DNA of 44,954 bases from an uncultured Oscillospiraceae bacterium. GTDB lineage: Bacteria > Bacillota > Clostridia > Oscillospirales > Oscillospiraceae. Where the stretch lies: assembly GCA_934589665.1 (NCBI GenBank), contig CAKTOJ010000003.1:1-44954 (forward strand), given 5' to 3'. The translations under genes and the position numbers were made by a program. Positions within the stretch are counted from its first letter, which is position 1, and every line of letters begins with the position of its first letter. Shown here piece by piece: positions 3,360-22,462 of this stretch. The notes beneath the pieces are model-generated. The model was not told the DNA's origin, did not search any database, and worked only from the letters and a program-made list of their open reading frames with translations.

Positions 3360-4172
3360 TTATTTGTTTATCATGCCCAGCAAAGAAGCCGTGGTAATCT
3401 CCGCCCAGCTGTACTGTGTCATGAATTCACCGACAAAGGCGCTCACCGCAGACGGCTCGCCGTTGAGAAAGCGGTAATAGTCGCACTCGAAGCGCTCCGT
3501 GTCCACGCTCAGACGGTTTCGGCCCTTGAGAATCACATCCTCACAGCCTGCGGCGCGCAGCGTGCGCATGAGGTCCGATTTGAAGGTTTCAAGCTGATTT
3601 TTCAGCGCGCTGCCATACTCCCGGTCCTCGTAGAGCACAGCAGCACACTCTTTGATGCTGCACGCCGCACCGCGGCGAAACACCAGATAAGCAAACAGCT
3701 CCTTGCTCTTCGAGCGCGAAAACTCCAACGGCCGCCCCTGATAAAACGCCTCGAAATTTCCGAAGCACTGTACGCGCAGCGCCTTTTCCTGTGCGGTGCG
3801 GACCGTGGTCAGGCCGATATTGCGCAGCTCCTCGGCAATGTCCTCCGGCGTGACCGGCTTCATCAGATAGCCGCGCGCGTGCAGAGAGTAGGACTCCAGC
3901 GCATACTGGGAATAGGCTGTGACAAAGATGATCTCAAGTGCCGGCAGAAGCTTTCGCAGTTCAACCGCAAGATCCAGCCCTGTCCAGCCGCGCATCTGAA
4001 TGTCCAGAAAGGCAACCTGCGGGCTGAACGTGCCCGCATGCACGGCGGCAAGCGCCTCCTCCGGATCGGTAAAATCATGCACCTGCGCCTCCGGCTCCGC
4101 CGTATGCAGAGCGTTTGTCAGGTCCTGCAGCGCCAGCGGCTCGTCGTCAACCGCCAAAAAGCAATATTTCAC
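3360..4172 (-). CDS. Response regulator with SARP-like (BTAD-type) output domain
   Basis: 270 aa. Residues 1-120 form a receiver domain with acidic pair D9-D10, phospho-acceptor D57 in AFLDIQM, a VTAYSQ switch and a MKPVTPE lysine region. Residues about 130-250 look like the winged-helix plus helical domain found in SARP-type regulators (LRVQCFGNFEAFYQGRPLEF start, then KSKELFAYLVFRRG). I chose the GTG at 4172: it overlaps the kinase stop codon in GTGA and follows GGAGGAG, whereas an upstream frame extension lies inside the kinase gene. The overlap implies translational coupling with the sensor. Likely targets are the permease and amidase genes immediately downstream; the signal is unknown. 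Confidence 0.88.
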   Translation of the reverse strand: MKYCFLAVDDEPLALQDLTNALHTAEPEAQVHDFTDPEEALAAVHAGTFSPQVAFLDIQMRGWTGLDLAVELRKLLPALEIIFVTAYSQYALESYSLHARGYLMKPVTPEDIAEELRNIGLTTVRTAQEKALRVQCFGNFEAFYQGRPLEFSRSKSKELFAYLVFRRGAACSIKECAAVLYEDREYGSALKNQLETFKSDLMRTLRAAGCEDVILKGRNRLSVDTERFECDYYRFLNGEPSAVSAFVGEFMTQYSWAEITTASLLGMINK

Positions 4173-5557
4173 GGTCTCTCCTCCTTCCGGTCCTTGGGAA
4201 TGATCAGTGTCACCGTCGTGCCGTGATCCGGACTGCTTTGGACCTCCATCCTTCCGCCGCAGATCGCGGCCAGCCGCTCCCGCACGCTCCACAGTCCGAT
4301 ATGCTCGCCCGCCGGACCGATGGGCTGCGCCGTGTCGAAGCCGACACCGTCGTCCACCACGCTCACACGCACATTCTCCTCATCCTCCGCGGTCATGACC
4401 ATGACCGTCCCGCCGCTGCGCCGCTGCATAACGCCGTGGCGCACCGCATTTTCCACCAGAGGCTCAAGCGTCAGCGGCGGCAGCGAGAAGTGCGTAACCG
4501 GCGTGTTGAAGAGCACGGTAAGATCCCTGCCGAAGCGCATCCTCTCAAGGTCTACATAATGTCTGGTGTGCTCCAGCTCCTGCAAAAACGGGATGCAGCC
4601 CGTATTGCTCAGTGAATTGAGGTTGCCGCGCAGATAGCGCGTAAAATCCGTCAGCGCCTGCTCAGCCTTCCGCGCATCCGTGCGGCACAGCGCACGGATG
4701 CTGGTAAGCGCATTGTAGAGGAAGTGCGGCTGGATCTGGCTGAGCATGATGGAAATGCGCTGCTGGAGGAGCTGCTCCTCCTGCTGCTTTTCGTAGTCGA
4801 TCTGCACGGTGATGTATATCTGAATCAGGCAAAACGCCGTGACGACATGTGCCAGCGTGATCTCGCCAATGATCGTATCAAATGCGACTGCGGCTGCAAC
4901 CAGCAGCTCATAGCAGAGAAAGGAGACCGCCTTGCGGTTCGTCAGTACCCTGCGGAAATTCAGAATAATGGTGATGACGACAACCATCGGCAGCGCCAGG
5001 AAAAAGAAATACAGCCACGGATAATCCTGCAAACGCCAGGGCTGCACCTCGGCGTGCGCCGTGAAAACGGAAATCATGACCAGCAGCAGTCCGTCCGCGC
5101 TCAATCCGCCGACAAGCACGGCGTAGCGGCGCAGTTCCTTCGGGTCCTCGTTGATGTAGCTGATGAGATATGTGCTGTAAAAAATCAGCAGCGGAAAGGC
5201 CGAAGCATAGCAAACATAGTAGGCCGCCTCCCGAAGCTGCGGGAAGAGCGGCAGGAAATCCAACCCGATGCCCCAGTAGACCACATCGCTCAAAAGGCCG
5301 AGCGTGTTGAGCGCCAGCATCCAGAGGAAATAGGACCGGAAACGCCGCCGCGAATGGCTGCCGAACACCACGCTCGCATAGGTGGAGGTGGTCAGGATCG
5401 CAAAAAACAGCTCCAGCACCACGCCGACTGTCGTAAACGGGTTTGCCGGCACATCCCCGCCGGCAATGGCACGGAAAGTCACGACCATCAGCGTGAGCAC
5501 AATACCGATCGTCACCAGACAGCCGGCGCCCATGACAGTCCTCTTGTCTATCCGCAC
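4169..5557 (-). CDS. LytS-type membrane sensor histidine kinase
   Basis: 462 aa. The first 250 residues hold about seven hydrophobic helices. A short coiled stretch rich in Q and E then leads to the His_kinase motif SQIQPHFLYNAL with H278 as the expected phosphorylation site. The ATPase domain follows, with PPLTLEPLVENAVRHG (N box), VVDDGVGFD (G1) and GLWSVRERLA (G2). This is the LytS/YehU architecture with an integral-membrane sensor rather than an extracellular loop. The start is GTG at 5557, preceded by GGGAGGGG. It forms a coupled pair with the regulator (4-bp overlap). The ligand cannot be inferred. Confidence 0.88.
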   Translation of the reverse strand: MRIDKRTVMGAGCLVTIGIVLTLMVVTFRAIAGGDVPANPFTTVGVVLELFFAILTTSTYASVVFGSHSRRRFRSYFLWMLALNTLGLLSDVVYWGIGLDFLPLFPQLREAAYYVCYASAFPLLIFYSTYLISYINEDPKELRRYAVLVGGLSADGLLLVMISVFTAHAEVQPWRLQDYPWLYFFFLALPMVVVITIILNFRRVLTNRKAVSFLCYELLVAAAVAFDTIIGEITLAHVVTAFCLIQIYITVQIDYEKQQEEQLLQQRISIMLSQIQPHFLYNALTSIRALCRTDARKAEQALTDFTRYLRGNLNSLSNTGCIPFLQELEHTRHYVDLERMRFGRDLTVLFNTPVTHFSLPPLTLEPLVENAVRHGVMQRRSGGTVMVMTAEDEENVRVSVVDDGVGFDTAQPIGPAGEHIGLWSVRERLAAICGGRMEVQSSPDHGTTVTLIIPKDRKEERP

Positions 5558-5695: not shown

Positions 5696-5730
5696 AAAAA
5701 AGGAAGCTCCCCTTTCGGGGAGCTTCCTTT
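5696..5730 (-). terminator. Intrinsic terminator of the left S-layer gene
   Basis: A perfect 14-bp stem (5699-5712 with 5717-5730) closes a 4-nt loop and is followed by a T-run on the minus strand. The stem is the same as in the terminator of the right S-layer gene (12498-12532), and the sequence between stop codon and stem is also similar, so the genes were duplicated with their 3' ends. Confidence 0.9.
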
Positions 5731-5772
5731 GATTCCGTTTGGCTCAGAGAGCCTTACTGCCGATCGAGGAGA

Positions 5773-8313
5773 TTAGGCCTTGGTGGCAGCGGAAACGTAG
5801 ACGTACAGGTTGGTGATCTCGCCGTCGTTGTTGAGAACGCCGAAGTAGGTACCGGTGACCTTGTAATCCTTGCACTCGGTCTCGAGGCCGGAGCCGGTCA
5901 CGGTGTCAACGCTGTAGTCATTGTTGTTGTCGTTGATGCCGGCAACATTCTTCTCAACCACAAAGTAGACGTTGTAGTTGTCAGCCACGGCCTTGTCCTG
6001 AACGAAGTCGAACACGCCCTTGGAGAAGTTGACCTCCTTGCCGGAGATGTCGCCCTTGACATAGTCGTCGTCAGCGCCGTTAGCGGGGTTGACAGGATCC
6101 ATATCGGTGACATAGCCCGTGTCAGCGTCGTAAGCGATGCCGTCATACAGGGTCATGACGGTCTGCTTCTTGCCAAAGGTGTCGTCCAGCTTGATGGTGG
6201 TCTCCTCGCCGTTGACGATGGCCTTGTACTGATAATAGGTGTTATCATCAGCGTCGGTGCCGGCGCGGTCGAACTTCAGCAGGTAGACATAATCGGTAGC
6301 GGACTTGGTGTTGCCCTTAACGGAAGCGTCGGAGGCGTCGATGAAGACGTACTCAGCGAAGCTGCCGTCCATCTTGGCGAACGCGGTCAGGTCGCCGGAC
6401 TTGGCAGTGACCTTGATGGTGGGAACCTTGGAGATGCCCTCGTAGACCTTGACGTTATCATCCTCGTCGAGAACGATGAAGGTGGTGCCCTTGTTGGCCT
6501 TGAACTGGTTGGCAGTAGCAGCATCGACGCCAACGGCGGTCTTGCCGTTCTCGGTCAGCATCTTGCCGATGCCGGTAACCGTGACCTGAGCAAGATCAGC
6601 AGCGGCAACGCCGGTGATCTCGAACTTGCCGGACTTCTTCTCGCTGTAGGAGAACCACTTGTTGGTGGTATCAGTGCCGTTCGTGTAGACATCATCGTTC
6701 TTGACGGTGATGGTCTTGCGGGTGCCGTCGGAGAAGAACGCGTCGAGGATGACATCGGTGTCGAAGTCGCCCTTCTTAGCGGACTTGAGGGAGAAGAGGT
6801 ACTGGTTGGAGGAAGCCTTGGCCTCGTCAACGTAGATGATGAAGCCGTTGGTATCCAGAACAACAGTGGACTCGTCGCCGATGGAGAACTCAACGGACTT
6901 GCCGTTGTCCTTGTCAGCCTTCACGGTCTTGTTGTACTTGTAGGTGGTGCCGCCGATGGTGACGTCATTCTCGGTGGAGTAAGCGGTGACCTTGCCGGTG
7001 ACAGTCTTGGCGGGAACGACGGTCTGGATCTCGTTGTCAGCGATGGTGACGAGAACATAGTCGTCTTCCTTCAGCTCGGTGATGACCGCGAAGTCGTCGA
7101 GGGACAGGGTGTCGGTGGTCACGCCGCCGTTGTTGGCGTTGTCAGGAGTGACGACCTTGACTTCTTCCTTCTTGGCGTTGTAGTCGCTGGTGGCCTGCAT
7201 CACATAGGTGTTGATGATGACGATGGTAACAGCGTTGTTGTCATCGTTCACATAGACCTCAGTGGTGGTGCCGTTGCCGGTGTAGTCGCCAGCGCCGAGG
7301 CTCTTGGTGGAGTTCTTGTCGAAATACTTGGCAACATCCTGGCTCACGCCGGCGGTCTTGCCGTCGACATAAACGGTCAGAGTGGCATCGGGCTTCTTGG
7401 CATTATTCAGATCGTCAACAACAGTCTTGCCGACGGTGTTGTAGAGAACCTTCTCGGTAACCTTGGCATTGAAGCTGTAGTCAGCGGAATCAGCGAACTT
7501 GCCGATCTCTTCAGCCTTGTAGGTCCACACGGTAGCGGGACGGCCGAACTTGTCGCGCTGGTTGACGGTCTTGGCCTTCAGATCCTCGCCGTAGAGCTTC
7601 TCGGTGAGCTGCTGAATGTTGTCGCCGTCGTTGTTGTAGTCCTTCTTGGTCGTGACCTTGGAAGCCTTGGAGCTGCCGGTGATGACCTCGAAGCCGTCGC
7701 CCTTGACGGTGGTGCCCTCGATGGCATACTCGTAGGTGTCAGCCTTCAGGGCGTTGAGAGCCAGCTGAGCGGCCTCTTCACGGGTGAGGACCTCGGTGCC
7801 TCTCTTGGAGATCTTGTCGAACAGATCGTTGGTGGAGGCGAGCTTGGCGGTGTTGATGGCCCAATCGGCACCCTCGAGGGTCTCCTTGGTGGCATCATAA
7901 CCGAGCGCGCAGAGCAGCATCTTCGCAAACTGCAGGCCGGTCAGCTTGCCCTGGGGGTCAAACTTGCCGTTGCCAATGCCGGAGACGTAGCCGGCCTGGG
8001 CGCAGTAGGCGATGTAGCCCGCGGACCAACGGGTCGCGGGGACATCGGAGAAGGTGTTGGTGCCAACCAGGCCCTCAGCGGTCTTCTCGCCGAGGTCGAG
8101 GTAAGCGATGATCTTGGCGGCCTGCTCACGGGTCAGCTCTTCCTTGGGGTTGAACTTGTTGCCGTCGCCGCCAGCGAACACGCCGACCTTGGAGAGAACA
8201 TCGACAGCTTCGGAATAGTCGACGTCTGCAGCATCAGCGTACGCTGCGTTGCTGATGGTGACGAGGGACATGGACATGACCAGGGCCAGCACCAGCGCGA
8301 GTAACTTTTTCAT
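5773..8313 (-). CDS. S-layer-like protein with N-terminal SLH domains (copy likely ON)
   Basis: 846 aa with a signal peptide (about residues 1-26, cut near NAAYA). SLH repeats lie at about 30-76 and 84-140, with a weaker third at about 148-200. The remaining 640 residues are rich in D, K, T, V and beta-type pattern and have no recognisable enzymatic motif; strong codon bias and composition fit an abundant structural surface protein. The start at 8313 has an AAAGGAG site (8325-8331) and a 200-nt leader. The first 424 bp, from 11 nt before the ATG, are identical in inverted orientation to the gene at 9908. Protein identity stays high to about residue 225 and is then much lower. The call as S-layer protein is from architecture, not experiment. 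Confidence 0.85.
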   Translation of the reverse strand: MKKLLALVLALVMSMSLVTISNAAYADAADVDYSEAVDVLSKVGVFAGGDGNKFNPKEELTREQAAKIIAYLDLGEKTAEGLVGTNTFSDVPATRWSAGYIAYCAQAGYVSGIGNGKFDPQGKLTGLQFAKMLLCALGYDATKETLEGADWAINTAKLASTNDLFDKISKRGTEVLTREEAAQLALNALKADTYEYAIEGTTVKGDGFEVITGSSKASKVTTKKDYNNDGDNIQQLTEKLYGEDLKAKTVNQRDKFGRPATVWTYKAEEIGKFADSADYSFNAKVTEKVLYNTVGKTVVDDLNNAKKPDATLTVYVDGKTAGVSQDVAKYFDKNSTKSLGAGDYTGNGTTTEVYVNDDNNAVTIVIINTYVMQATSDYNAKKEEVKVVTPDNANNGGVTTDTLSLDDFAVITELKEDDYVLVTIADNEIQTVVPAKTVTGKVTAYSTENDVTIGGTTYKYNKTVKADKDNGKSVEFSIGDESTVVLDTNGFIIYVDEAKASSNQYLFSLKSAKKGDFDTDVILDAFFSDGTRKTITVKNDDVYTNGTDTTNKWFSYSEKKSGKFEITGVAAADLAQVTVTGIGKMLTENGKTAVGVDAATANQFKANKGTTFIVLDEDDNVKVYEGISKVPTIKVTAKSGDLTAFAKMDGSFAEYVFIDASDASVKGNTKSATDYVYLLKFDRAGTDADDNTYYQYKAIVNGEETTIKLDDTFGKKQTVMTLYDGIAYDADTGYVTDMDPVNPANGADDDYVKGDISGKEVNFSKGVFDFVQDKAVADNYNVYFVVEKNVAGINDNNNDYSVDTVTGSGLETECKDYKVTGTYFGVLNNDGEITNLYVYVSAATKA

Positions 8314-8324
8314 AATGTGTTACT
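7901..8324 (-). repeat. Left arm of a 424-bp perfect inverted repeat
   Basis: By direct comparison this segment is the exact reverse complement of 9897-10320. It covers 11 nt of leader and the first 138 codons of each S-layer gene, including synonymous sites. The outer break comes at a gg(t/c)tatgatgcc(a/g)cc mismatch pair; the inner break is sharp, between the Shine-Dalgarno sequence and the AGTAAC box. Identity at silent sites in otherwise diverged paralogues means recent or ongoing recombination. Confidence 0.93.
8300..8324 (-). other. Candidate crossover site, left
   Basis: The minus strand reads AGTAAC, 13 nt, GTTACT around the start codon. This 6-bp-arm dyad sits exactly at the inner edge of the inverted repeat, as would a core site for strand exchange by a tyrosine recombinase. 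The match between dyad edge and homology edge is seen; its role is inferred. Confidence 0.45.
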
Positions 8325-8331
8325 CTCCTTT
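8325..8331 (-). promoter_or_regulatory. Shine-Dalgarno sequence unique to the left S-layer gene
   Basis: AAAGGAG lies 11 nt before the ATG at 8313 and immediately outside the inverted repeat. The right copy has GGGGAAAAA in its place and so lacks a good ribosome binding site. This is the difference that makes the left copy the expressed one in the orientation given. Confidence 0.8.
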
Positions 8332-8351
8332 CTAAAATTTCCGCTTGAAGC

Positions 8352-8504
8352 GGATGTTCAGCAAACTTGGAGAGCCTCAGCATTCCTCGATCCACTTACC
8401 GTGGCATGCCGTTCCCGTAACTGAACCGGGAACCTGCCTTGTCCATCCTCATTTGCTACGCTAAAGATACTCCACCCTTCGCCCTTTTTCAAGTCTTTGG
8501 GGCG
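8352..8504 (-). ncRNA. Structured 5' leader RNA of the S-layer transcript (class unknown)
   Basis: Read on the minus strand, several stems are visible: CGCCC/GGGCG (8500-8504 with 8480-8484), GUUCCCG/CGGGAAC (8427-8433 with 8411-8417), and a nested pair GCAU/AUGC around CCAC/GUGG (8380-8409). A crossing pair is also possible: AGCAAA (8452-8457) with UUUGCU (8360-8365), and GGAUG (8444-8448) with CAUCC (8352-8356); this would be a pseudoknot. The single strands are purine-rich, as in riboswitches and ornate non-coding RNAs. An AT-rich stretch (8515-8574) upstream probably holds the promoter, but no clear -35/-10 pair was found. It could be a stabilising leader, a riboswitch or a separate RNA; a resemblance to the raiA motif is only a recollection. 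Confidence 0.45.
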
Positions 8505-8574
8505 TCCTTTAACATAAGAGTAAAAATGTATCATTTTCACACAACGAGTTATCTTTATTCTACGCTATTTCTGC

Positions 8575-9822
8575 TTACTGTCCGCCGGTGGGAAGCAGAT
8601 AGTGCTTTCTGCCGCGGTCAAGCTGTAATTTTCCCTCTCTGACCATGCGCGCGAGCACGGTGCGCGCCGCGCGGGGCTCAAGGCGCAGCAGCCGCGCGAT
8701 ATCGCTGAGGTAGACGCGCTCCATCGTGCGCACGTAGTCGAGCACCAGCCGCTCCTGCTCCCCGGGCGGTACGGCTTGACCGGCGGGGTAGTAGCCGGAG
8801 CTGATGTGCACGAGTGCGCCGTGCGCGCACAGCGCGCGCAGATGCGCCAGCGCCGTGTTTTTCGGGATGTTCAGCTCCTCTGCCGCCGCACGGAGCGTGA
8901 CGCTCCCCCGCCTGCGGGCGAGGGCGAGCAGACGTTCCTCCTCCTGCCGCCGCGAAGCGTCGGCGAGAAGGGTGCGCAGGGTCTTGTGTTCGATGCCGCC
9001 GCGGATGAGCAGCTCGCGCAGCATCACGCTTAAACGCTGCGCGCTCACCGGCGCGCCGGTCGGTGAGGTGATGACATATGCCCACTCCCCGCGCCGCGCG
9101 CGGGCCTCGGCGAGCACGCCGCTCACGGCCTTGGTCAGGGATACCTCCCGCTCCGGCAGACGGATCACGCCCGCGCGCAGGTCGACCGCGTCCCACGTCA
9201 GCGCCGCGATCTCGCGCGCCGACAGGCGCGGATACCACGCCAGCCACAGCGCGAGCCCCGCATCCGTCCCGCGCTGGGCTTGCAGAATGCGCCAGAGCAG
9301 ATATTCGTCCGTCCCGCCGTCGGCATCCGTTTCCCCCGGCGCGTCCGGCGCGCCGAAGAGCGGTGCGATGGTACCGCGGTAGGCCGCAAGCGTCAGCCCT
9401 GAGACGCGCAGGACATAAGACAGGTCGTGCTCTAAAAGCTGACGGCGGATAAAGTCAAGGCGCAGGTCGGCAAAGGTCACGCCCTGCTGCTCCGCCGCGT
9501 CGAGCGTGCGGCGCAGAACGCGCGAGAGCTCCTGCGTGCGGTACGGCTCCCCGCTGCGCGCGGAGACGAGCACGCGCCCCGACTCTCGCCGCGAGAGCGC
9601 GAGCATCCCGGCCAGCGCCGCGTCCAGCGGCACCTCTCGCCCCGTGGCAGAGAGCACGGCATTTTCAAGGTCGATCTGCTCCCACGTCAGCGCTTCGATC
9701 TCCGCGCGCCGCAGTCCCGCGAGCCATGCGAGCGCCGCGGCGAGGCTGCCGTGCCGCCGCGGGTATTTTTGCAGAATTTCGCGCAGCTTCTGCGCATTTG
9801 GCTGATGAAATTCACGCGGCAC
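8575..9822 (-). CDS. Tandem, degenerate tyrosine-recombinase-fold protein with C-terminal winged helices
   Basis: 415 aa. Two integrase-like catalytic folds follow one another. The first (1-150) has GLRRAEIEALTWEQID with the first Arg (R38), DLR with the second Arg (R121) and a Tyr (Y148), but the usual Lys, His and His/Trp positions are lost (A59, A118 and L143). The second (about 171-290) keeps SAREIAALTWDAVD without the first Arg and stops before a Tyr. Residues 295-342 and 355-412 resemble winged-helix DNA-binding domains. GTG start at 9822 with AAAGGAGG 7-10 nt before it. It lies inside the segment bounded by the S-layer inverted repeats, so it may be the invertase, an accessory factor or a regulator. 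Missing catalytic residues argue for caution about activity. Confidence 0.75.
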   Translation of the reverse strand: MPREFHQPNAQKLREILQKYPRRHGSLAAALAWLAGLRRAEIEALTWEQIDLENAVLSATGREVPLDAALAGMLALSRRESGRVLVSARSGEPYRTQELSRVLRRTLDAAEQQGVTFADLRLDFIRRQLLEHDLSYVLRVSGLTLAAYRGTIAPLFGAPDAPGETDADGGTDEYLLWRILQAQRGTDAGLALWLAWYPRLSAREIAALTWDAVDLRAGVIRLPEREVSLTKAVSGVLAEARARRGEWAYVITSPTGAPVSAQRLSVMLRELLIRGGIEHKTLRTLLADASRRQEEERLLALARRRGSVTLRAAAEELNIPKNTALAHLRALCAHGALVHISSGYYPAGQAVPPGEQERLVLDYVRTMERVYLSDIARLLRLEPRAARTVLARMVREGKLQLDRGRKHYLLPTGGQ

Positions 9823-9856
9823 CGAACCGCCTCCTTTTCCGTCATCTATACATTAT

Positions 9857-9885
9857 AATATATAGCACTCTCTCAGCGCTGTCAA
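9857..9885 (-). promoter_or_regulatory. Strong promoter of the integrase-like gene
   Basis: The minus strand has TTGACA (9880-9885), a 17-bp spacer and TATATT (9857-9862) with a TG three bases before it. It fires away from the right S-layer gene and lies within the putative invertible segment. Its sequence is close to the promoter at 12581-12609. Confidence 0.75.
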
Positions 9886-9896
9886 CGCGGGGAAAA

Positions 9897-9921
9897 AGTA
9901 ACACATTATGAAAAAGTTACT
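9897..9921 (+). other. Candidate crossover site, right
   Basis: The same AGTAAC-N13-GTTACT dyad as at 8300-8324, in inverted orientation, astride the start codon of the right gene. Exchange between two inverted sites would flip 8325-9896 and put leader and Shine-Dalgarno in front of the right gene. Confidence 0.45.
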
Positions 9922-10320
9922 CGCGCTGGTGCTGGCCCTGGTCATGTCCATGTCCCTCGTCACCATCAGCAACGCAGCGTACGCTGATGCTGCAGACGTC
10001 GACTATTCCGAAGCTGTCGATGTTCTCTCCAAGGTCGGCGTGTTCGCTGGCGGCGACGGCAACAAGTTCAACCCCAAGGAAGAGCTGACCCGTGAGCAGG
10101 CCGCCAAGATCATCGCTTACCTCGACCTCGGCGAGAAGACCGCTGAGGGCCTGGTTGGCACCAACACCTTCTCCGATGTCCCCGCGACCCGTTGGTCCGC
10201 GGGCTACATCGCCTACTGCGCCCAGGCCGGCTACGTCTCCGGCATTGGCAACGGCAAGTTTGACCCCCAGGGCAAGCTGACCGGCCTGCAGTTTGCGAAG
10301 ATGCTGCTCTGCGCGCTCGG
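9897..10320 (+). repeat. Right arm of the 424-bp perfect inverted repeat
   Basis: Exact reverse complement of 7901-8324. Homology starts at A9897, just after GGGGAAAA, and runs to G10320. The interval between the arms (8325-9896) is 1,572 bp. Confidence 0.93.
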
Positions 10321-12457
10321 CTATGATGCCGCCAAGGAGACCCTCGAGGGTGCCGATTGGTCCATCAACACCGCCAAGCTCGCTTCCACCAACGATCTGT
10401 TCGACAAGATCTCCAAGAAGGGCACCGAGGTTCTCACTCGTGAAGAGGCCGCTCAGCTGGCTCTCAACGCTCTGAAGGCTGACACCTATGAGTATGCCAT
10501 CGAGGGTACCACCGTCAAGGGCGACGGCTTCGAGGTCATCACCGGCAGCTCCAAGGCTGACAAGGTCACCACCAAGAAGGACTACAACGGCGACAAGGAC
10601 AACATCCAGCAGCTCACCGAGAAGCTGTATGGCAACGACCTGAAGGCCGACGAGAACGTCTCCGACGATTTCGGTCGTCCCGCTACCAAGTGGACCTACA
10701 AGACTGAGGAAGTTGGCACCTATGCCGATGCCGCTGATTACACCCTCAACAACAAGGTCACCAAGAAGGCTCTCTATGACACCCTGGGCAAGGATGTTGT
10801 TGACGACCTGAAGGACACCAAGAACACCAAGGCCACCCTCACCGTTTATGTTGACGGTAATGATGACAAGGCTTACGCCCTCTCCGGCGACACCGCCATC
10901 AAGACCTTCATCGACAAGAACTCCACCAAGGCTGCGGCCGGCACCGGCAACGGCGCTCTGACCGAGGTCTATGTTGACGACGATACCAACGAGGTTACCG
11001 TTGTTGTCATCAACACCTACGTCATGCAGGCCACCGGCGACTACAACAGCAAGAAGGAAGAGCTCAAGGTCGAGTTCCTCGCTCCCGCTGCGAAGGCTGT
11101 CTCCGGTCTGTCCTCCGATGACAAGACCCTCTCCGTTGACGATTTCGCTGTCATCGCTGACGCGAAGGAAGACGACTATCTGCTCGTCACCATCGCCGGC
11201 ACTGACATCAAGACCGTCGTTCCCGCCAAGACCGTCACCGGCAAGGTCACCGCTTACTCCACCGGCAACGATGTGACCATCGGCGGCACCACCTACAAGT
11301 ATGCCAACACCATCGAGGCAGAGGACAAGAACGGCAAGAAGGTCGAGTTCTCCATCGGTGACGAGGCGACTGTGGTTCTCGACACCAACGGCTTCATCGT
11401 CTACGTTGACGAGGCCAAGGCTTCCTCCAGCCAGTATGTCTTCGTGACCGAGTTCGCCAAGGACGGCAACTTCAAGGATGCCGACCTGCTCGCTAAGGCT
11501 TACTTCACCGACGGCACCTACAAGAAGGTCACTGTCAAGAACGATGACGACATCAAGAAGCTGGGCGATGCTGCTAACAACCACTGGTACTCCTACACCG
11601 AGAAGAAGGGCGGCGAGTATGAGCTGACCCTCATCAAGGATGGTAAGGACGGCTTCGAGAAGGTCTATGTTTCCGGTAAGGACACGACCCTGATCGAGAA
11701 CGGCAAGACCAAGCTCGGCGACAGCTCCTTCAAGGCCAACAAGTCCACCACCTTCGTCTTCCTTGACGACGGCGATGTGAAGGTCTACGAGGGCATCTCC
11801 AAGGTTCCCACCGTCAAGACCAGCGCCAAGGCTGCCAGCCTGACCGCTTACGTCAAGCTGGATGGTTCCACCTATGCCGAGTATGTCTTCGTCGAAGTGA
11901 CCGACGCCACCACCAAGGGCGGCAATAAGACCAACTCCGACCTGATCTATGTCCTCGACTTCGACCGCACCGGCACTGACGCTGATGATAACACCTATTA
12001 TCAGTTCAACGCCATCGTCAACGGCGAGGAGACCAAGGTCAAGTTCAACGATGATGAGAACTACAGCAAGACCGCATCCAGCTACGAGTTCACTCTGCTC
12101 GAGAACATCTCCTACGAGTCCGAGACCGGCTACATCTCCGATTTCGACCAGGTGACGAAGAGCGATGACGACTATCTCACCAAGTCCTTCACCGGCAAGG
12201 TGACTTACTCCGACGGTGTTGTGAACTTCGTTCCCGACAACGCTCTGGCTGACAAGTACACCATCTACCTCATCGCTGATGTCAACACCGGCATCAATGA
12301 GAACGATAAGGACTACAGCGTTGACACCGTGACCGGCTCCGGTCTTGAGACCGAGTGCAAGGGCTACAGCGTCACCGACGGTTCCTACGTTGCCGTTCTG
12401 GACAACGATGAGATCACCGAGCTGTACGTCTACATCCACACCACTGCCAAGGCCTAA
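9908..12457 (+). CDS. S-layer-like protein with N-terminal SLH domains (copy likely OFF)
   Basis: 849 aa, a full-length paralogue of the 846-aa protein encoded divergently. It has the same signal peptide and SLH repeats, identical to residue 142 in protein and to codon 138 in DNA. Similarity then falls through the middle and returns at the end (KDYSVDTVTGSGLETECK in both). Silent sites also differ after the shared block; this copy uses more GCT and GTT codons. Upstream there is no good ribosome binding site (only GGGGA 14 nt away) and the nearest promoter points the other way, although a lone TATAAT-like hexamer exists on this strand at 9854-9859. There is no frameshift or stop, so the gene is intact and probably silent until rearrangement. 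It ends with its own terminator. Confidence 0.85.
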   Translation: MKKLLALVLALVMSMSLVTISNAAYADAADVDYSEAVDVLSKVGVFAGGDGNKFNPKEELTREQAAKIIAYLDLGEKTAEGLVGTNTFSDVPATRWSAGYIAYCAQAGYVSGIGNGKFDPQGKLTGLQFAKMLLCALGYDAAKETLEGADWSINTAKLASTNDLFDKISKKGTEVLTREEAAQLALNALKADTYEYAIEGTTVKGDGFEVITGSSKADKVTTKKDYNGDKDNIQQLTEKLYGNDLKADENVSDDFGRPATKWTYKTEEVGTYADAADYTLNNKVTKKALYDTLGKDVVDDLKDTKNTKATLTVYVDGNDDKAYALSGDTAIKTFIDKNSTKAAAGTGNGALTEVYVDDDTNEVTVVVINTYVMQATGDYNSKKEELKVEFLAPAAKAVSGLSSDDKTLSVDDFAVIADAKEDDYLLVTIAGTDIKTVVPAKTVTGKVTAYSTGNDVTIGGTTYKYANTIEAEDKNGKKVEFSIGDEATVVLDTNGFIVYVDEAKASSSQYVFVTEFAKDGNFKDADLLAKAYFTDGTYKKVTVKNDDDIKKLGDAANNHWYSYTEKKGGEYELTLIKDGKDGFEKVYVSGKDTTLIENGKTKLGDSSFKANKSTTFVFLDDGDVKVYEGISKVPTVKTSAKAASLTAYVKLDGSTYAEYVFVEVTDATTKGGNKTNSDLIYVLDFDRTGTDADDNTYYQFNAIVNGEETKVKFNDDENYSKTASSYEFTLLENISYESETGYISDFDQVTKSDDDYLTKSFTGKVTYSDGVVNFVPDNALADKYTIYLIADVNTGINENDKDYSVDTVTGSGLETECKGYSVTDGSYVAVLDNDEITELYVYIHTTAKA

Positions 12458-12497
12458 TCACCTCGAACAGTGGTGAGGCTCCCTGAGCCAAACGGAT

Positions 12498-12532
12498 AAA
12501 AGGAAGCTCCCCATATGGGGAGCTTCCTTTTT
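12498..12532 (+). terminator. Intrinsic terminator of the right S-layer gene
   Basis: A perfect stem of at least 15 bp centred on an ATAT loop (12513-12516), ending in a T-run. The arms share GGAAGCTCCCC with the terminator of the left gene. Confidence 0.92.
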
Positions 12533-12704: not shown

Positions 12705-13262
12705 ATGACATCAGACGAAACCCTGTACCGCCGCTATCTTGACGGCGACGACGACGCGCTCGGCGCGCTCATGGAGCGTCACGGCGACCGCCTGACGCTC
12801 TATCTCGACGGCTATCTGCACGATATCCACGAAGCCGAGGACCTGATGATCGAGGCCTTTGCCTACCTCATCGCCAAAAAGCCGCACATCCGTGACGGCG
12901 GCTTCCGTGCCTACCTCTACCAGTCGGCGCGCCACATGGCGCTGCGGACGCTGGCAAAACAGCGCGCACGCTCGTGCTTCTCGCTCGACGCGCTGACGCA
13001 GGAGCCGGAGGCGCGGGAGCTGGTCGAGGAGCTGACGGAAACAAACGAGCGCGCGCAGACGCTGCGCGCGTGCATGGCGGAGCTGCACGCGGACTACCGC
13101 GAGGCGCTGTTTCTCGTCTATTTCGAGGGCTTGAGCCACGCGGAGACCGCCGCCGTCATGGGACGGCGGGAGCGACAGGTCGCCGACCTCATCTACCGCG
13201 GGAAAAACGCGCTGCGCAAGCGGCTGGAACAGGAGGGGATCACCTATGCGTACAACGGATGA
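12705..13262 (+). CDS. ECF-type RNA polymerase sigma factor
   Basis: 185 aa. Residues 8-75 match sigma region 2 (LYRRYLDGDDDALGALMERH, HEAEDLMIEAFAYL, then FRAYLYQSARHMALR), and residues 120-175 match region 4 (LHADYREALFLVYFEGLSHAETAAVMG with a helix-turn-helix). The length fits the ECF group, which redirects RNA polymerase in response to envelope or other signals. It is the first gene of a tightly packed operon: the next gene starts 17 bp before its stop, then come a polytopic membrane protein and a PrsW-family protease. No classical zinc-binding anti-sigma motif is encoded nearby, so the small membrane protein downstream is the best candidate for its inhibitor (inference). Confidence 0.88.
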   Translation: MTSDETLYRRYLDGDDDALGALMERHGDRLTLYLDGYLHDIHEAEDLMIEAFAYLIAKKPHIRDGGFRAYLYQSARHMALRTLAKQRARSCFSLDALTQEPEARELVEELTETNERAQTLRACMAELHADYREALFLVYFEGLSHAETAAVMGRRERQVADLIYRGKNALRKRLEQEGITYAYNG

Positions 13263-13587
13263 ACGCCTGCGAGCAGCAAAGCGCCGCGCGGAGGAAATGA
13301 AACAGCAGGAGCGCCGCCGGCGCGGAAAAATCGCCGTCCTCGCCTGTTCGGCGGCCTGTCTGGCGGTGATTTTCGCCCTCGCGCTCGCCATGCCGTCCAT
13401 CGCGGCGCGCCTTTCCGGCGCGGAATACGGCGTCGGCCTGACGGCAAGCATGTTCAGCGGCGAGAGCCTCGGCTATCTCGTCATCGGCTTGCTCGCCTTT
13501 GCGCTGGGCGTGTGCGTGACGGTGCTGTGCGTCCGCCTTCGCCGCCATGAGCGGGACGAAGAGAGCGAGGGGCCGCACGATGCTTGA
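13246..13587 (+). CDS. 113-aa two-helix membrane protein, possible anti-sigma or partner
   Basis: The N terminus (1-27) is highly basic and probably cytoplasmic. One membrane helix spans about 28-50 and a second about 72-96, and the tail is charged (RRHERDEESEG). No HxxxCxxC zinc anti-sigma motif is present. It overlaps the sigma gene by 17 bp and the next gene by 8 bp, which signals coupled translation. A clear paralogue of the same length and plan sits at 40420-40761, directly coupled to an SLH protein; both have S-x-E-S-x-G-Y before the second helix. The position after an ECF sigma and ahead of PrsW suggests a membrane-bound sigma antagonist cut by the protease, but this is inference only. 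No known domain recognised. Confidence 0.75.
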   Translation: MRTTDERLRAAKRRAEEMKQQERRRRGKIAVLACSAACLAVIFALALAMPSIAARLSGAEYGVGLTASMFSGESLGYLVIGLLAFALGVCVTVLCVRLRRHERDEESEGPHDA

Positions 13588-14203
13588 ATTCTGGGATTAC
13601 CTCGTGCAGTTCCTCGTCACGGCGTTCGGCTTCTGCGCCGCGCTGCGCCGGTATTTTCAAAGCCGCCGCCAGCCGTGGTTCCTGCTCGCCTGCTTTTACG
13701 GCACCTTTGCCCTCGGCACGCTTTATTGGACGCTCCACCTTGCCCTGCGGCAGGAAACGCCGCAGATCTTCTATGTTTCCGACCTCGCGTGGATCGCGAG
13801 CTTCGTCTTTCTCCTCACGCTGACGCTCACCCTGCCCTCCGCGGCCGAGCGCCGCGCCCGCACAAGGCTGTGTCTGCTCGTTCCCGCGCTCGGCCTGCCC
13901 CAGTTCGCGCTCTACGTCACGCATGGGGACATCCTCTCCAACGTCCTCATGTGCGGCATGACGATGCTCGCGGCATGGTGCGCCGTGCGCGGACTTGTGT
14001 GGGCGAAAACGGGCGGCGATGCGCGGCTGTGCCGCTTCCATCAAGCCGTCCTCGGCTTCACGGCGCTGGAGTACGCGCTCTGGACCTCGTCCTGCTTCTG
14101 GGTGAGCGACACGCTCACCAATCCCTATTTCTGGTTCGATTTTCTGCTCTCCGCCGTGCTCGCGCTGTTCCTGCCCGCGCTCGGAAAGGCGGTGGAGGCA
14201 TGA
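13580..14203 (+). CDS. Polytopic membrane protein of unknown function
   Basis: 207 aa with about seven hydrophobic segments and short loops. I took the ATG at 13580, which overlaps the previous stop by 8 bp and begins with MLEFWDYLVQF; an in-frame ATG 33 nt upstream lies inside the previous gene. The stop overlaps the next ATG in ATGA. I recognise no family motif. Its place between a sigma/small membrane protein pair and a PrsW-type protease suggests it works with them, perhaps as a sensor or chaperone of the protease (inference). Confidence 0.75.
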   Translation: MLEFWDYLVQFLVTAFGFCAALRRYFQSRRQPWFLLACFYGTFALGTLYWTLHLALRQETPQIFYVSDLAWIASFVFLLTLTLTLPSAAERRARTRLCLLVPALGLPQFALYVTHGDILSNVLMCGMTMLAAWCAVRGLVWAKTGGDARLCRFHQAVLGFTALEYALWTSSCFWVSDTLTNPYFWFDFLLSAVLALFLPALGKAVEA

Positions 14204-14832
14204 CCTACATCGAAAATATTTTCATCTGCATGGCTGCGCCGCTCGCGGTGACGCTGCTCTTCCTCCCGCGCAGAAGCCGCCCCGTGCTGCTCTTCTGCCT
14301 CGCGGGCATGCTCTCGTGTCTGCTCTCGGCCTATCTCAACACGTTTTTCGCCCACTATTACGGCGCGGACGCCGTCAACGCCGCCACACAGGTCGCGCCG
14401 GTGGTGGAGGAGATCATGAAGCTTCTGCCCCTGCTCTTCTACCTCGCCGTGTTCGAGCCGTCCGCCTCTCGCTTCCGGCTCTCTGCCGTCGTGCTGGCCG
14501 CCAGCTTCGCCACGTTTGAAAACGTCTGCTACCTCACCCAGAACGGTGCCGGACAGTTCACGCACCTGCTCATCCGCGGCTTCGGCACGGGCGCCATGCA
14601 CGTCGTCTGCGGCAGCGTTTACGGCAGCGCCCTGCGCCCCGTGTGGCAGAGCCGCGCGCTGCGCGCGGCCTGTCTGTTCGGGCTTTTGTGCGTCGCCATC
14701 ATCTACCACGCGATCTACAACCTGCTCATCACCGCGCCCGGCGCGCCGCAGCTGACCGCGTACTGCATCCCGCTGCTCACCGCCCTCGCGCTCGCCGCGT
14801 TCGAGCGGCGCACAGCGGACGAACCAAATTAA
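14200..14832 (+). CDS. prsW: PrsW-family intramembrane metalloprotease
   Basis: 210 aa, about seven helices. The conserved PrsW motifs are present: VVEEIMK (E70, E71, K74), FENVCY (F106, E107, Y111), AMHVV (H124) and IYHAIYN (H170, N174). In Bacillus subtilis PrsW makes the first cut in the anti-sigma factor RsiW and so frees SigW; here the gene is in one operon with an ECF sigma factor, which supports the same kind of role. The start is the ATG at 14200 inside the ATGA overlap with the preceding stop, with GGTGGAGG just before it; a longer frame upstream belongs to the shadow of that gene. Substrate is inferred, not shown. Confidence 0.85.
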   Translation: MTYIENIFICMAAPLAVTLLFLPRRSRPVLLFCLAGMLSCLLSAYLNTFFAHYYGADAVNAATQVAPVVEEIMKLLPLLFYLAVFEPSASRFRLSAVVLAASFATFENVCYLTQNGAGQFTHLLIRGFGTGAMHVVCGSVYGSALRPVWQSRALRAACLFGLLCVAIIYHAIYNLLITAPGAPQLTAYCIPLLTALALAAFERRTADEPN

Positions 14833-14840
14833 CGTTTCGC

Positions 14841-14873
14841 GAAAAGCGGCAGGCCGATGGCCTGTCGCTTTTC
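14841..14873 (+). terminator. Terminator of the sigma/PrsW operon
   Basis: A 15-bp stem with one G-T mismatch (14841-14855 with 14859-14873) begins 9 nt after the PrsW stop. The T-run is only four bases and lies within the stem, so it is moderate. Confidence 0.6.
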
Positions 14874-14932
14874 CTGTGTGCGGAGAAAAACGGGCCCGGC
14901 GCAAGAAAAGGATAGCCGAACCGGCAAAGGCA

Positions 14933-14941
14933 TGGTATGAT
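14933..14941 (+). promoter_or_regulatory. Possible extended -10 promoter of the kinase/YcbB operon
   Basis: TGGTATGAT is an extended -10 element 28 nt before the kinase ATG. No -35 is present at the right distance, so this is tentative. Confidence 0.3.
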
Positions 14942-14968
14942 GGAGAAAAAGCAAGGGAGGGCCCGAAA

Positions 14969-16234
14969 ATGGCACGGAAACCAACATACAACCGGCGCAT
15001 CATGCTCGTGTGCGCGGGGCTGACCGCGCTGATGTCGCAGATCTCCGTCTCCGTGCAGGCGGGCGGCTTTCACCTCTCCGTGGCCATCATCCTGCTCCAG
15101 ATCCTGCTCTTCATACTGCCCGGCCTTCCCACCCTGCCGCTCACCGCGCTCAGTGCCGCGGGCGTCTGCCTGCTGCGGACCGCCGGTGCGGCGCTCTCCG
15201 GCCGCCCATTTGGGGAGGCTGCGCTCGAGGCCGTGCCCGAAATCGCGTTTTATCTGTGCTTCGCCGTCCTCTTCCGCCTGTTTTTCGAGGGAAAGCGCAC
15301 CGCGTACCGCCTCTCCTATGCCCTGCCGCTCGCCGCAATGGACGCGGCGGGCAACCTTGTCGAGCTCCTGCTGCGCGGGGGCCGGGAGGGCCTTTCGCTC
15401 CCGCTTTTTCTGCAGATCGCGGCAGCCGGCCTTGTGCGCGCGGGGGCTGCCGGCACTGTCCTGCTTGCCCTGCGGCGCTACGGCGTCCAGATCCTGCGGC
15501 GTGAGGACGCCGCGCGCTACCGGAAGCTCCTTTTCATGACCGCCGATCTGCGCAGCGAGCTTGTCTGGATGGAAAAGGGCTCGGCGCTGGCCGAGGACAC
15601 CATGAACCGCGCCTACCAGCTTTACCGCAGCCTGTGCGGGGATGAGGGCAGCTCCCCGCTCGCGGGCGAGGCGCTGCTCATCGCCAAGGACGTGCACGAG
15701 ATCAAAAAGGAGTACGCGCTGGTCATGCGCGGCATCTCCGCCGCGCTCGACCGCGACACGGCGCGCGACGGAATGGCGCTCACCGAGCTTTTCCGCCTGC
15801 TCGCGCAAAGCGCGGAGCGCTTCGCGTCCGGGCAGCACAAGGCTGTCTGCGTGCAGTGCCGGTGCGAAACGGAGCTGCGCACGGCGCGGCACTACGAGCT
15901 CATGTCCGTCCTGCGCAATCTGCTCAACAATTCCGTCGAGGCCGCGCCGGAGGGGCGTGACGCGTCCGTCGCCCTGTGCGCGCAGCGTGATAGCAATGCG
16001 CTGACCCTCACGGTGGAGGACGACTGCGGCGGCATCCCCGCCGACCGGCTCGGCGAGATCTTCACCCCCGGCTTTTCCAGCAAAATCAACCCCCAAACGG
16101 GCGAGATCAGCCGCGGCCTCGGCCTGAGCATCGTCAAGGATCTGGTCGAGAAGACCCTCAAGGGCTCCATTACCGTCCGCTCCTCTGATGGAACAACCGT
16201 ATTCACCGTCCGCATCCCCATCGAAAACCTGTAA
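14969..16234 (+). CDS. Membrane sensor histidine kinase (partner of YcbB-type regulator)
   Basis: 421 aa. Residues 10-170 contain about five or six hydrophobic helices. Then follow a linker, VHEIKKEYALV with H243 as the likely phospho-site, NLLNNSVEAAPE (N box), VEDDCGGIPADRLGEIFTPGFSS (G1/F boxes) and RGLGLSIVKDLVE (G2). The start at 14969 has AAGGGAGG 8-10 nt upstream; an in-frame ATG at 14876 would sit across the upstream terminator and promoter. The regulator gene follows after 11 nt with a strong TAAGGAGG site, so both are one operon. The signal is unknown; the neighbouring PTS-like transporter suggests a nutrient. Confidence 0.85.
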   Translation: MARKPTYNRRIMLVCAGLTALMSQISVSVQAGGFHLSVAIILLQILLFILPGLPTLPLTALSAAGVCLLRTAGAALSGRPFGEAALEAVPEIAFYLCFAVLFRLFFEGKRTAYRLSYALPLAAMDAAGNLVELLLRGGREGLSLPLFLQIAAAGLVRAGAAGTVLLALRRYGVQILRREDAARYRKLLFMTADLRSELVWMEKGSALAEDTMNRAYQLYRSLCGDEGSSPLAGEALLIAKDVHEIKKEYALVMRGISAALDRDTARDGMALTELFRLLAQSAERFASGQHKAVCVQCRCETELRTARHYELMSVLRNLLNNSVEAAPEGRDASVALCAQRDSNALTLTVEDDCGGIPADRLGEIFTPGFSSKINPQTGEISRGLGLSIVKDLVEKTLKGSITVRSSDGTTVFTVRIPIENL

Positions 16235-16245
16235 GGAGGCGAACC

Positions 16246-17115
16246 ATGCGAATCTATCTCATCGACGACGACAGCGCCGTTTTGGGCGTCCTGCGCCTGC
16301 TGCTCGAGCAGGACGGCCACACCGTCGCGGGCAGCGCGCAGAGCGCGGCCGACGCGCTGGAGGATCTGCGCGACTGCGGCGCGGAGCTTGTTTTAGTGGA
16401 TCTCCTGATGCCGGACATGGACGGGATCAGCTTTGTCCGCCGGGCCAAGCGGGAATTTCCGGCGCTGCGCTTCGTCATGCTCTCGCAGGTCACCTCCAAG
16501 GACATGGTGGCCGAGGCCTACGCCGCCGGCGTCGATTTCTTTCTCTCCAAGCCGATCAACGCCGTGGAGGTCACCAGCGTGCTTGCAAGGGTCGGGCAGC
16601 TTGTGACCATGGAGCGCACCATGCGTCAGGTGCGCGCGCTCATTCAGGCGGACGCCCCGCCCGCGGGCGCGGACGCATCACCTGCTGGGCCCTCCGCCGC
16701 GCAGGGGTTGAGCGAGCAGCAGCTCGCCCAGCTCAAGGCCGTCCTGCACCGCCTCGGCCTGAGCGGCGATCCGGCCTACGCCGACCTCATTCAGGTCGTC
16801 GGCTTCCTCGCCGCGCAGGGCCGGCATGAGCAGATGACCGTCGCGCAGCTGTGCAGCCGCTTCAGCCCCTCCCCCAAGGCGATGGAGCAGCGCATCCGCC
16901 GCGCCGCCGCGGCCGGCATGGTCAATCTCGCCAACCTCGGCATCGAGGACTACGCCAACGACGTGTTCACGGAATACGCCGGCACGCTCTTCAACTTCGA
17001 GCAGGTCCGCAGAGAGATGAACTGCATCCGCGGAAAGAGCGGCGAGCACGGCAAAATTTCCGTCCGCCGCTTCCTCTACGCGCTCGCCGCGCTCTGCTCC
17101 AAGCAGGAACGCTAA
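16246..17115 (+). CDS. Response regulator with YcbB (GlnL-type) output domain
   Basis: 289 aa. The receiver domain (1-120) has D7-D8-D9, phospho-acceptor D52 in VLVDLLMPDMDG, a MLSQVTS switch and K105-type LSKPINA. A P/A-rich linker (about 133-152) leads to an output region (155-285) with HRLGLSGDPAYADLIQVV, SPSPKAMEQRIRRAAAAGMVNLANLGIEDYAN and a C-terminal IRGKSGEHGKISVRRFLYALA, the pattern of the YcbB domain. In B. subtilis GlnL/YcbB with kinase GlnK controls glutaminase and glutamine transport. Here a PTS IIC-like gene lies 171 bp downstream instead. After the stop only a weak nested hairpin (about 17136-17168) followed by TTTAAATTTTA is seen. Confidence 0.85.
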   Translation: MRIYLIDDDSAVLGVLRLLLEQDGHTVAGSAQSAADALEDLRDCGAELVLVDLLMPDMDGISFVRRAKREFPALRFVMLSQVTSKDMVAEAYAAGVDFFLSKPINAVEVTSVLARVGQLVTMERTMRQVRALIQADAPPAGADASPAGPSAAQGLSEQQLAQLKAVLHRLGLSGDPAYADLIQVVGFLAAQGRHEQMTVAQLCSRFSPSPKAMEQRIRRAAAAGMVNLANLGIEDYANDVFTEYAGTLFNFEQVRREMNCIRGKSGEHGKISVRRFLYALAALCSKQER

Positions 17116-22228: not shown

Positions 22229-22321
22229 ACTCGTTTCTCCTCTCTCAAATGCGCCGCAGCTCGGGCAGGCCTTCCCCGCGGGGAAAGCGTCTGTGTTCCC
22301 GAATCAAAGGATCATAAGAGC

Positions 22322-22350
22322 ATTATAGCCGACGTTTCCCGGCATGTAAA
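22322..22350 (-). promoter_or_regulatory. Promoter of the 1229-aa SLH gene
   Basis: On the minus strand TTTACA (22345-22350), 17 bp and TATAAT (22322-22327): near-consensus. The leader after it holds a CTTTCCCC/GGGGAAGG-type hairpin (about 22271-22288). Confidence 0.8.
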
Positions 22351-22426
22351 TCATCCCAAAGTAGGAGACCGTCTTCCCAATCCCGTCCCATCCGCCGATG
22401 TACGGTGAGCATGGCGTTTTTCCCTC

Positions 22427-22459
22427 AAAAAATGCAGGACGGCTGTGCCGTCCTGCATT
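22427..22459 (-). terminator. Terminator of the SLH protease operon
   Basis: A perfect 13-bp stem (22431-22443 with 22447-22459) with a 3-nt loop starts 3 nt after the protease stop, and a T-run follows on the minus strand. Confidence 0.9.
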
Positions 22460-22462
22460 CGT

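Follow-up and report, generated by a model that had tools for sequence, protein, structure and literature searches.

We analysed a stretch of 44,954 nucleotides, hereafter the window, from an uncultured Oscillospiraceae bacterium (assembly GCA_934589665.1, contig CAKTOJ010000003.1, positions 1 to 44,954 of the forward strand), in which two S-layer protein genes, slpL and slpR, diverge from a short segment and carry the same 5' sequence as inverted copies. Our findings suggest, with a probability of roughly 0.7, that the segment at 8325-9896 is an invertible expression cassette placed between alternative S-layer genes. Compared genomes, loci, contigs and proteins are labeled G, L, C and P, respectively, each with a number. 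The features on which the argument depends are as follows:

5773-8313, minus strand: slpL, the left S-layer gene, 846 amino acids with two SLH stretches; promoter-like site, leader and Shine-Dalgarno present
9908-12457, plus strand: slpR, the right S-layer gene, 849 amino acids with two SLH stretches; intact, without leader and without Shine-Dalgarno
7901-8324, minus strand: left repeat arm, consisting of 11 bp before the ATG and 413 bp of coding sequence
9897-10320, plus strand: right repeat arm, forming a perfect 424-bp inverted repeat with the left arm
8325-9896, no strand assigned: spacer of 1,572 bp, read directly from the sequence and proposed to invert
8325-8333, minus strand: Shine-Dalgarno region of slpL, AGAAAGGAG, bases -20 to -12, at the extreme edge of the segment
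8381-8433, minus strand: conserved structured leader RNA element (model R1), upstream of slpL
8492-8464, minus strand: predicted slp promoter TTGAAA-17-TATCTT, upstream of slpL

Both products are SLH-type proteins, scoring 60.9 and 61.6 bits against the Pfam SLH model (cut-off 20.8). A first-pass annotation of this DNA had described two complete S-layer-like genes diverging from a 1,572-bp segment, and the coordinates and intact frames bear this out. Its 424-bp perfect inverted repeat, with an edge between the Shine-Dalgarno and the start codon, proved exact: slpL and slpR are identical over 413 bp downstream of the ATG and 11 bp upstream of it. As the two genes are paralogues, complementarity continues past this perfect part, at 97% over 752 bp and about 82% over 2,176 bp. 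The silent sites of the arms, likewise reported as identical, are so: among fourfold-degenerate sites with the same residue, 0 of 55 differ in the first 137 codons versus 44 of 178 in the rest, a contrast that by our own arithmetic has p of about 2e-7 under equal rates. Judged by these sites, the 5' identity of the two genes exceeds chance. In the gene bodies, nonsynonymous divergence (dN) is 0.24 versus a synonymous divergence (dS) of 0.45.

The expression signals predicted from the sequence, namely the promoter-like site, the leader element and the Shine-Dalgarno, are found on the left copy only, which agrees with the earlier statement that leader and Shine-Dalgarno belong to the left gene and are missing from the intact right one, and extends it to the promoter-like site. 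At the slpR start, GGAG was not found in place, and the plus strand of 8250-10000 holds no promoter-like site beyond one at 8309-8338, at the far left edge. For comparison we used the nearest genus, which is that of G383 and includes G157 (18 genomes); here, 30 matches to the slp start pattern were read in 16 of the 18 genomes. GGAG stands in place at 19 of 24 slp upstream regions from the window and this genus, a count that leaves out starts with too little upstream sequence; the five without it are slpR, two copies in G357, one in G409 and one in G408. The G408 start, which is unpaired and near a contig end, has the leader element and no Shine-Dalgarno. The TATCTT hexamer also occurs upstream of the leader element in G357, G293, G403 and G411, and the leader stem-loop shows covariation, with changes on both sides in 6 of 13 predicted pairs. 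A known riboswitch was considered for the leader and rejected: Rfam gave no match in the leader in a search of window positions 8200-10000 with E up to 1, and six relatives yielded five matches below the gathering score, to microRNA, IRES and lncRNA families.

These features lead us to propose that a reciprocal exchange between the two perfect arms would carry predicted promoter, leader and Shine-Dalgarno from slpL to slpR and back, so that slpR would be silent in the given orientation and expressed after inversion. In the window, RecA-type homologous recombination between the long arms would be the likeliest means: such arms are long enough for homologous recombination, and since they are also perfect and an active recombinase is not found nearby, it is the simplest one.

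Codon usage bears on whether the right gene is ever read. With codon weights taken from six slp copies in five other genomes of the nearest genus, slpR scores 0.85 versus 0.86 for slpL, whereas 12 other genes of the window score 0.43-0.64. Similarly, the copies without a Shine-Dalgarno in G357 score 0.82 and 0.84 versus 0.76 for the copy that has one (five other open reading frames at that locus, 0.34-0.68), and in G409 the signal-less and signal-bearing copies both score 0.71, the better codon at synonymous differences falling to one copy 82 times and to the other 97 times. Any codon decay of slpR would thus be slight at most. Drift would be expected in a gene that is silent for good, so the retained bias suggests that slpR is probably not permanently silent; in the sequence, it is the best indication that slpR is expressed at times, and recent silencing would look alike.

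Relatives provide further examples. DNA comparison of the genes to the right of slpR gives, at best, stretches 81% identical to G157 and 77% identical to G417. At locus L206 of G357, one slp gene starts at 8892 on the minus strand with Shine-Dalgarno and leader, and another starts at 9206 on the plus strand without either; they share a 77-bp perfect repeat around a 307-bp spacer and encode frames of 1374 and 1464 amino acids. As read from this layout, G357 holds a second locus of the same switch design. A third slp copy of this genome, on contig C56 away from the pair, also lacks Shine-Dalgarno and leader.

The shared 5' ends are not limited to these two loci. Among 26 slp copies including those of the window, two copies of one genome show 0-5 differences in the first 72 coding bases (23 pairs), whereas copies from different genomes show 15.7 on average, with a minimum of 3 between the window and G157 (302 pairs). 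Copies cut by contig ends were left out of this comparison, as were three start-pattern matches with 3 mismatches in open reading frames of 190-475 amino acids. The pattern indicates that slp 5' ends are homogenised within genomes while their bodies diverge. For the left protein, the relative P0016 is 88-100% identical per 50 alignment columns in columns 201-800, and 94 and 91% identical in the first 100 columns, where slpL and slpR are 100% identical to each other.

Contigs of many relatives end in the leader or at an slp start (L005, L009, L011, L022, L169-L171, L175 and others), which implies that these loci are often broken in draft genomes. For instance, the right ends of L208 and L207 (G157, contigs C14 and C45) overlap by 112 bp, and joining them would give a leader-bearing spacer between head-to-head slp genes. 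The slp genes of C14 and C45 (plus strand) share 202 bp perfectly, and the assembler left the two contigs unjoined, as if the assembly graph branched at that place.

The leader model R1, run against 73 sources, finds its element upstream of slp genes in both the nearest genus and the genus of G417. We identified 14 inverted slp pairs: those of the window, G357 and G409, two in G157 and nine in the G417 genus. Three were set aside because the contig ends at the slp start or within 62 bp of it (G157 C45, G512 C42 and G512 C44). In 11 of the 11 scorable pairs the leader stands on exactly one copy, once opposite-strand matches are set aside; R1 was built with the window, G357 and G409, and the other eight pairs played no part in it. 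The opposite-strand matches are weaker (e.g., 16 bits in the window, 26 bits in G357) and are taken as shadows of a near-palindromic element, although the one in G357, some 210-260 bp ahead of the right gene, would by position alone count as a leader. G409 is included although its partner is 17 kb away, past the 12-kb limit of the pair scan; leaving it out gives 10 of 10. The leaderless slp of G409 was rejected as a clean silent copy, for it has no ATG and abuts a large serine recombinase gene. That gene (L217:7262-9358, on contig C19, with Resolvase, Recombinase and zinc ribbon domains) ends about 13 bp from the slp without Shine-Dalgarno and ATG, and an element may have inserted at this start.

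Within the G417 genus, the R1 element was found in 54 of 86 genomes, with 75 matches, in a scan strict enough that weak copies may escape. Fifty of these matches lie 45-160 bp ahead of an slp gene from the list and share its direction; for the remaining 25 the list has no slp so placed, and several of these sit at contig ends. At most 11 slp candidates were scored per genome. In G358, which consists of one contig of 3,576,111 bp, a single leader match stands against six listed slp matches; other genomes have up to seven slp matches listed, and the window shows two slp genes.

Additionally, several pairs of the G417 genus are accompanied by a recombinase. In G213, G529, G533 and G508, a tyrosine recombinase gene lies about 120-210 bp upstream of the leaderless slp and points at it. 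These genes, present in 4 of 7 scorable pairs of that genus, belong to one subfamily (58-80% identity), and those of G529, G533 and G508 are single open frames with the residues R, K, HxxR, H and Y, while that of G213 is in two frames. In the flanks scanned, the pairs of G358 and G085 have no slp-linked recombinase, and the sequence of G514 ends 236 bp upstream. Among 57 distinct slp starts preceded by 1.4 kb of sequence or more, the subfamily occurs at three leaderless pair members only; the G529 gene is also seen from the other side, the G213 start has too little upstream sequence to be in the set, and a 33% match over 85 residues at L119 falls on its P0001-family gene, a family introduced below. 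The nearest match to the layout of the window is G529, where a head-to-head spacer of about 1.5 kb encloses the recombinase gene and the right slp has an internal stop. For the G417 genus, inversion would likely be site-specific, with the recombinase beside the leaderless copy as its enzyme. This recombinase is widespread in metagenomes, where 331 proteins match at E 1e-60 or better. A phage origin was rejected, as none was found in viral contigs by an exact-word scan of low sensitivity. Many of its clusters (P0133-P0252) come only from contigs of about 1.2-1.6 kb (e.g., one of 854 members whose longest contig has 1,225 bases), as expected for a repeat-flanked gene.

The spacer of the window carries a gene of its own, which the earlier account of the segment did not include:

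8575-9822, minus strand: P0001 gene, 415 amino acids, GTG start; degenerate tyrosine-recombinase-like protein with a C-terminal winged helix
9885-9857, minus strand: predicted P0001 promoter TTGACA-17-TATATT (11 of 12)

P0001 reaches 36.5 bits against Pfam Phage_integrase (cut-off 27.1) in two stretches, and its C-terminus gives winged-helix-like matches, mostly below cut-offs. The residues that make up the catalytic set of tyrosine recombinases (R, K, HxxR, H/W and Y) are not all present. In an alignment of 12 rows, used together with an alignment to 4a8e, the column of the first arginine holds R, T, N, S or A, the tyrosine column varies, and neither HxxR nor LGH occurs in the first domain in any of the 12. 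P0001 was rejected as the invertase, given the loss of catalytic residues across these members and the same design in G357, at whose locus no P0001 relative was found. It is probably a regulator built on a dead recombinase fold, and may have an accessory role in recombination. Pointing at the leader and traveling with it, P0001 would regulate the leader.

Scoring 7,995 candidates out of a database of 5.8 billion proteins gave eleven homologues, and genome contigs contain 30 loci of the family (38 found minus the 8 weakest, L032-L039) in records with titles such as Oscillibacter, Dysosmobacter, Oscillospiraceae, Eubacteriales or Clostridia. A relative lies upstream of the slp gene and in the same direction at 26 of the 57 starts, slpL included and one (L167) weak; many of the loci were chosen for carrying the family, and 26 of 57 is not a frequency. 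The direction relative to slp is constant across the 26. A plasmid or phage origin of P0001 was rejected: there was no plasmid match, and the single viral locus gave a 30% partial match. In five loci (L007, L018, L112, L046 and L121, the last two both of G001) a XerC/D-like recombinase of about 290 amino acids precedes the P0001-family gene and is read in the same direction, for instance at L112:11499-12365 and L121:6755-7642; these proteins share 40-68% identity, and identical scans found no such neighbour in the window.

Around each ATG, at 8298-8324 and 9897-9923, lies the imperfect palindrome AGTAAC-n13-GTTACT, which can form a hairpin of 6-7 bp with the AUG in its loop and contains the sole TTA codon of slpL and the sole TTA codon of slpR. 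It is retained in most slp starts of the nearest genus that have a Shine-Dalgarno, some with G-U pairs. As a recombinase core it is doubtful, since its left half travels with the Shine-Dalgarno and is missing from the G357 copies without one. The exact 25-base pattern had no match in viral contigs.

Several observations weigh against an inverting cassette. The window shows one orientation, and inversion itself is what we infer from the layout; moreover, it is one assembled contig of unstated read type, and with a 424-bp perfect repeat short reads cannot fix the orientation of the segment. Searches of genome contigs and of genomes found no close relative of the window, and a reciprocal body swap between species, sought as proof of inversion, was abandoned because the bodies are too diverged (20 bodies in 10 pairs, without G085). 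Neither the 45-kb window nor the 20 loci of the nearest genus yielded a recombinase whose active site is intact in a motif scan, which could miss a relative with a changed motif. At synonymous differences between the two genes the better codon is on the left 52 times versus 39 on the right, which slightly favours slpL, and the TATAAT at 9854-9859 (plus strand) could be a weak unseen promoter of slpR. The slp start of the window differs from that of G157 at only 3-4 of 72 bases, so that the within-genome and between-genome ranges touch. Pairs of the G417 genus have a Shine-Dalgarno on both copies, which implies that only the leader, not translation, would be switched there. Finally, gene conversion without crossover would likewise keep the arms identical.

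This last process underlies an alternative that we consider clearly unlikely, in which slpR is a silent donor for non-reciprocal conversion into slpL and the segment never inverts. The homogenised arms fit it, as does the G357 copy on C56 that sits away from the pair, yet a donor does not need to be placed in inverted position around one leader, as is found in 11 of 11 scorable pairs; moreover, the signal-less genes retain their codon bias along their whole length, and four pairs have a recombinase beside them. It is rather unlikely for the window that a tyrosine recombinase inverts the segment site-specifically at the slp start and that the long arms are a mere by-product. This route is suggested by the recombinases with catalytic residues beside leaderless slp genes (G529, G533 and G508, with that of G213 in two frames), by the XerC/D-like recombinases upstream of P0001-family genes in five relatives and by the palindrome that spans the ATG; neither kind of recombinase was found in the window or at the G357 locus, though, P0001 is without catalytic residues, and the palindrome, whose left half accompanies the Shine-Dalgarno, is explained at least equally well by an mRNA hairpin.

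If slpL and slpR were plain paralogues, an inverted duplication of the 5' end would have left slpR dead or on an unseen promoter, and no switching would occur. The intact frame of 849 amino acids, the expression-type codon bias, the dN of the bodies below their dS and the same design in G357 make this quite improbable, despite the TATAAT on the plus strand, the existence in relatives of inverted slp pairs with two Shine-Dalgarnos, and the opposite orientation not having been seen. An assembly artefact, in which the perfect arms are collapsed near-identical copies and the head-to-head order is wrong, would agree with the failure of assemblers at slp starts in many relatives; since each arm in the window continues into a body and flank of its own, and the same layout recurs in G357, where the arms measure just 77 bp, this explanation is a very remote one. 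The inverting cassette remains the reading we prefer. Compared with the first-pass annotation, the logic of the switch has been strengthened by G357, the one-leader pairs, the codon bias, the 5'-end homogenisation and the four linked recombinases, while its central step, inversion, is still a proposal.

Comparable S-layer systems have been described. The slpA/slpB inversion of Lactobacillus acidophilus was reportedly set out by Boot et al. 1996. The geometry of slpA/slpB resembles the tail-to-tail pairs of the G417 genus. Another such system is the sap locus of Campylobacter fetus (Dworkin & Blaser 1996). It comprises S-layer genes with a common conserved 5' region and extra promoterless copies. 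The window resembles sap in this conserved 5' region and in a copy without a predicted promoter, and differs in protein family and phylum, which are unrelated. As given in PMC6015585, an expressed and a promoterless silent S-layer gene of L. acidophilus are interchanged by inversion of a chromosomal slp segment. The window likewise has two S-layer genes, one without a predicted promoter, for which interchange by inversion is proposed; in contrast, its pair is head-to-head, so that the segment with promoter, leader and gene would invert rather than the S-layer genes, its S-layer proteins are of SLH type, and its leader RNA is structured. Intact S-layer genes with an inverted common 5' region and signals on one copy only are among the marks of such switches, and the window is most likely an inversion switch of the slpA/slpB and sap kind, as far as sequence can tell.

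In Clostridioides difficile, PMC2784873 describes, for cwpV and RecV, imperfect repeats of 21 bp lying 195 bp apart, with promoter and open reading frame outside the inverting piece. On that description, cwpV is like the window in being a clostridial cell-wall protein gene tied to DNA inversion (proposed in our case), and differs in being one gene turned on and off, whereas in the window the arms measure 424 bp and extend into coding sequence, and two genes would alternate. Gut invertons, according to PMC11892184, have repeats of 10-40 nt bound by invertases. By that account the window shares with them a segment flanked by inverted repeats near surface genes, and its type of arm, 77-424 bp long and overlapping the start codon, falls outside their repeat size; an intact recombinase near the segment is also absent from the window by motif scan, P0001 being degenerate. 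Short-read inverton scans are likely to miss or misplace such arms. Among the papers listed by searches of the open-licence PMC literature, none reports S-layer inversion in Oscillospiraceae in its title or the opening of its abstract.

A wider proposal stands at even odds in our judgement: that Oscillospiraceae practise a family-wide form of switching with a single leader expression site per inverted pair, two geometries (flipping the leader cassette or the gene pair), a dedicated tyrosine recombinase that some members carry on the silent partner, and a dead recombinase-like winged-helix protein that accompanies the leader as regulator or accessory factor. Bacteria of this family are common in the gut, and most are uncultured. 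If the switch is real, a single genome can present two or more surfaces, with consequences for phage escape, immune recognition and strain tracking. The slp repeats break assemblies and exceed the repeat size of inverton scans, so standard tools would likely miss this variation; the leader model R1 and the slp-linked recombinase offer handles for finding and testing such switches.

Other features of the window surround the locus. Each S-layer gene is followed by a terminator-like inverted repeat, the two being paralogous to each other:

5697-5733, minus strand: terminator-like inverted repeat after slpL
12496-12532, plus strand: terminator-like inverted repeat after slpR

One flank of the slp locus (12705-17115) encodes a sigma factor, a PrsW-like protease and a sensor kinase with a YcbB-type regulator, and the other (3360-5557) a second kinase-regulator pair. 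Near the locus, at 18539-23821, an SLH protein of 1229 amino acids and a subtilase with three SLH stretches lie beside an open reading frame of 3015 amino acids. Farther along, the long open reading frame at 40956-44948 contains two direct repeats of 300 bp, 71% alike, at 42746-43459.

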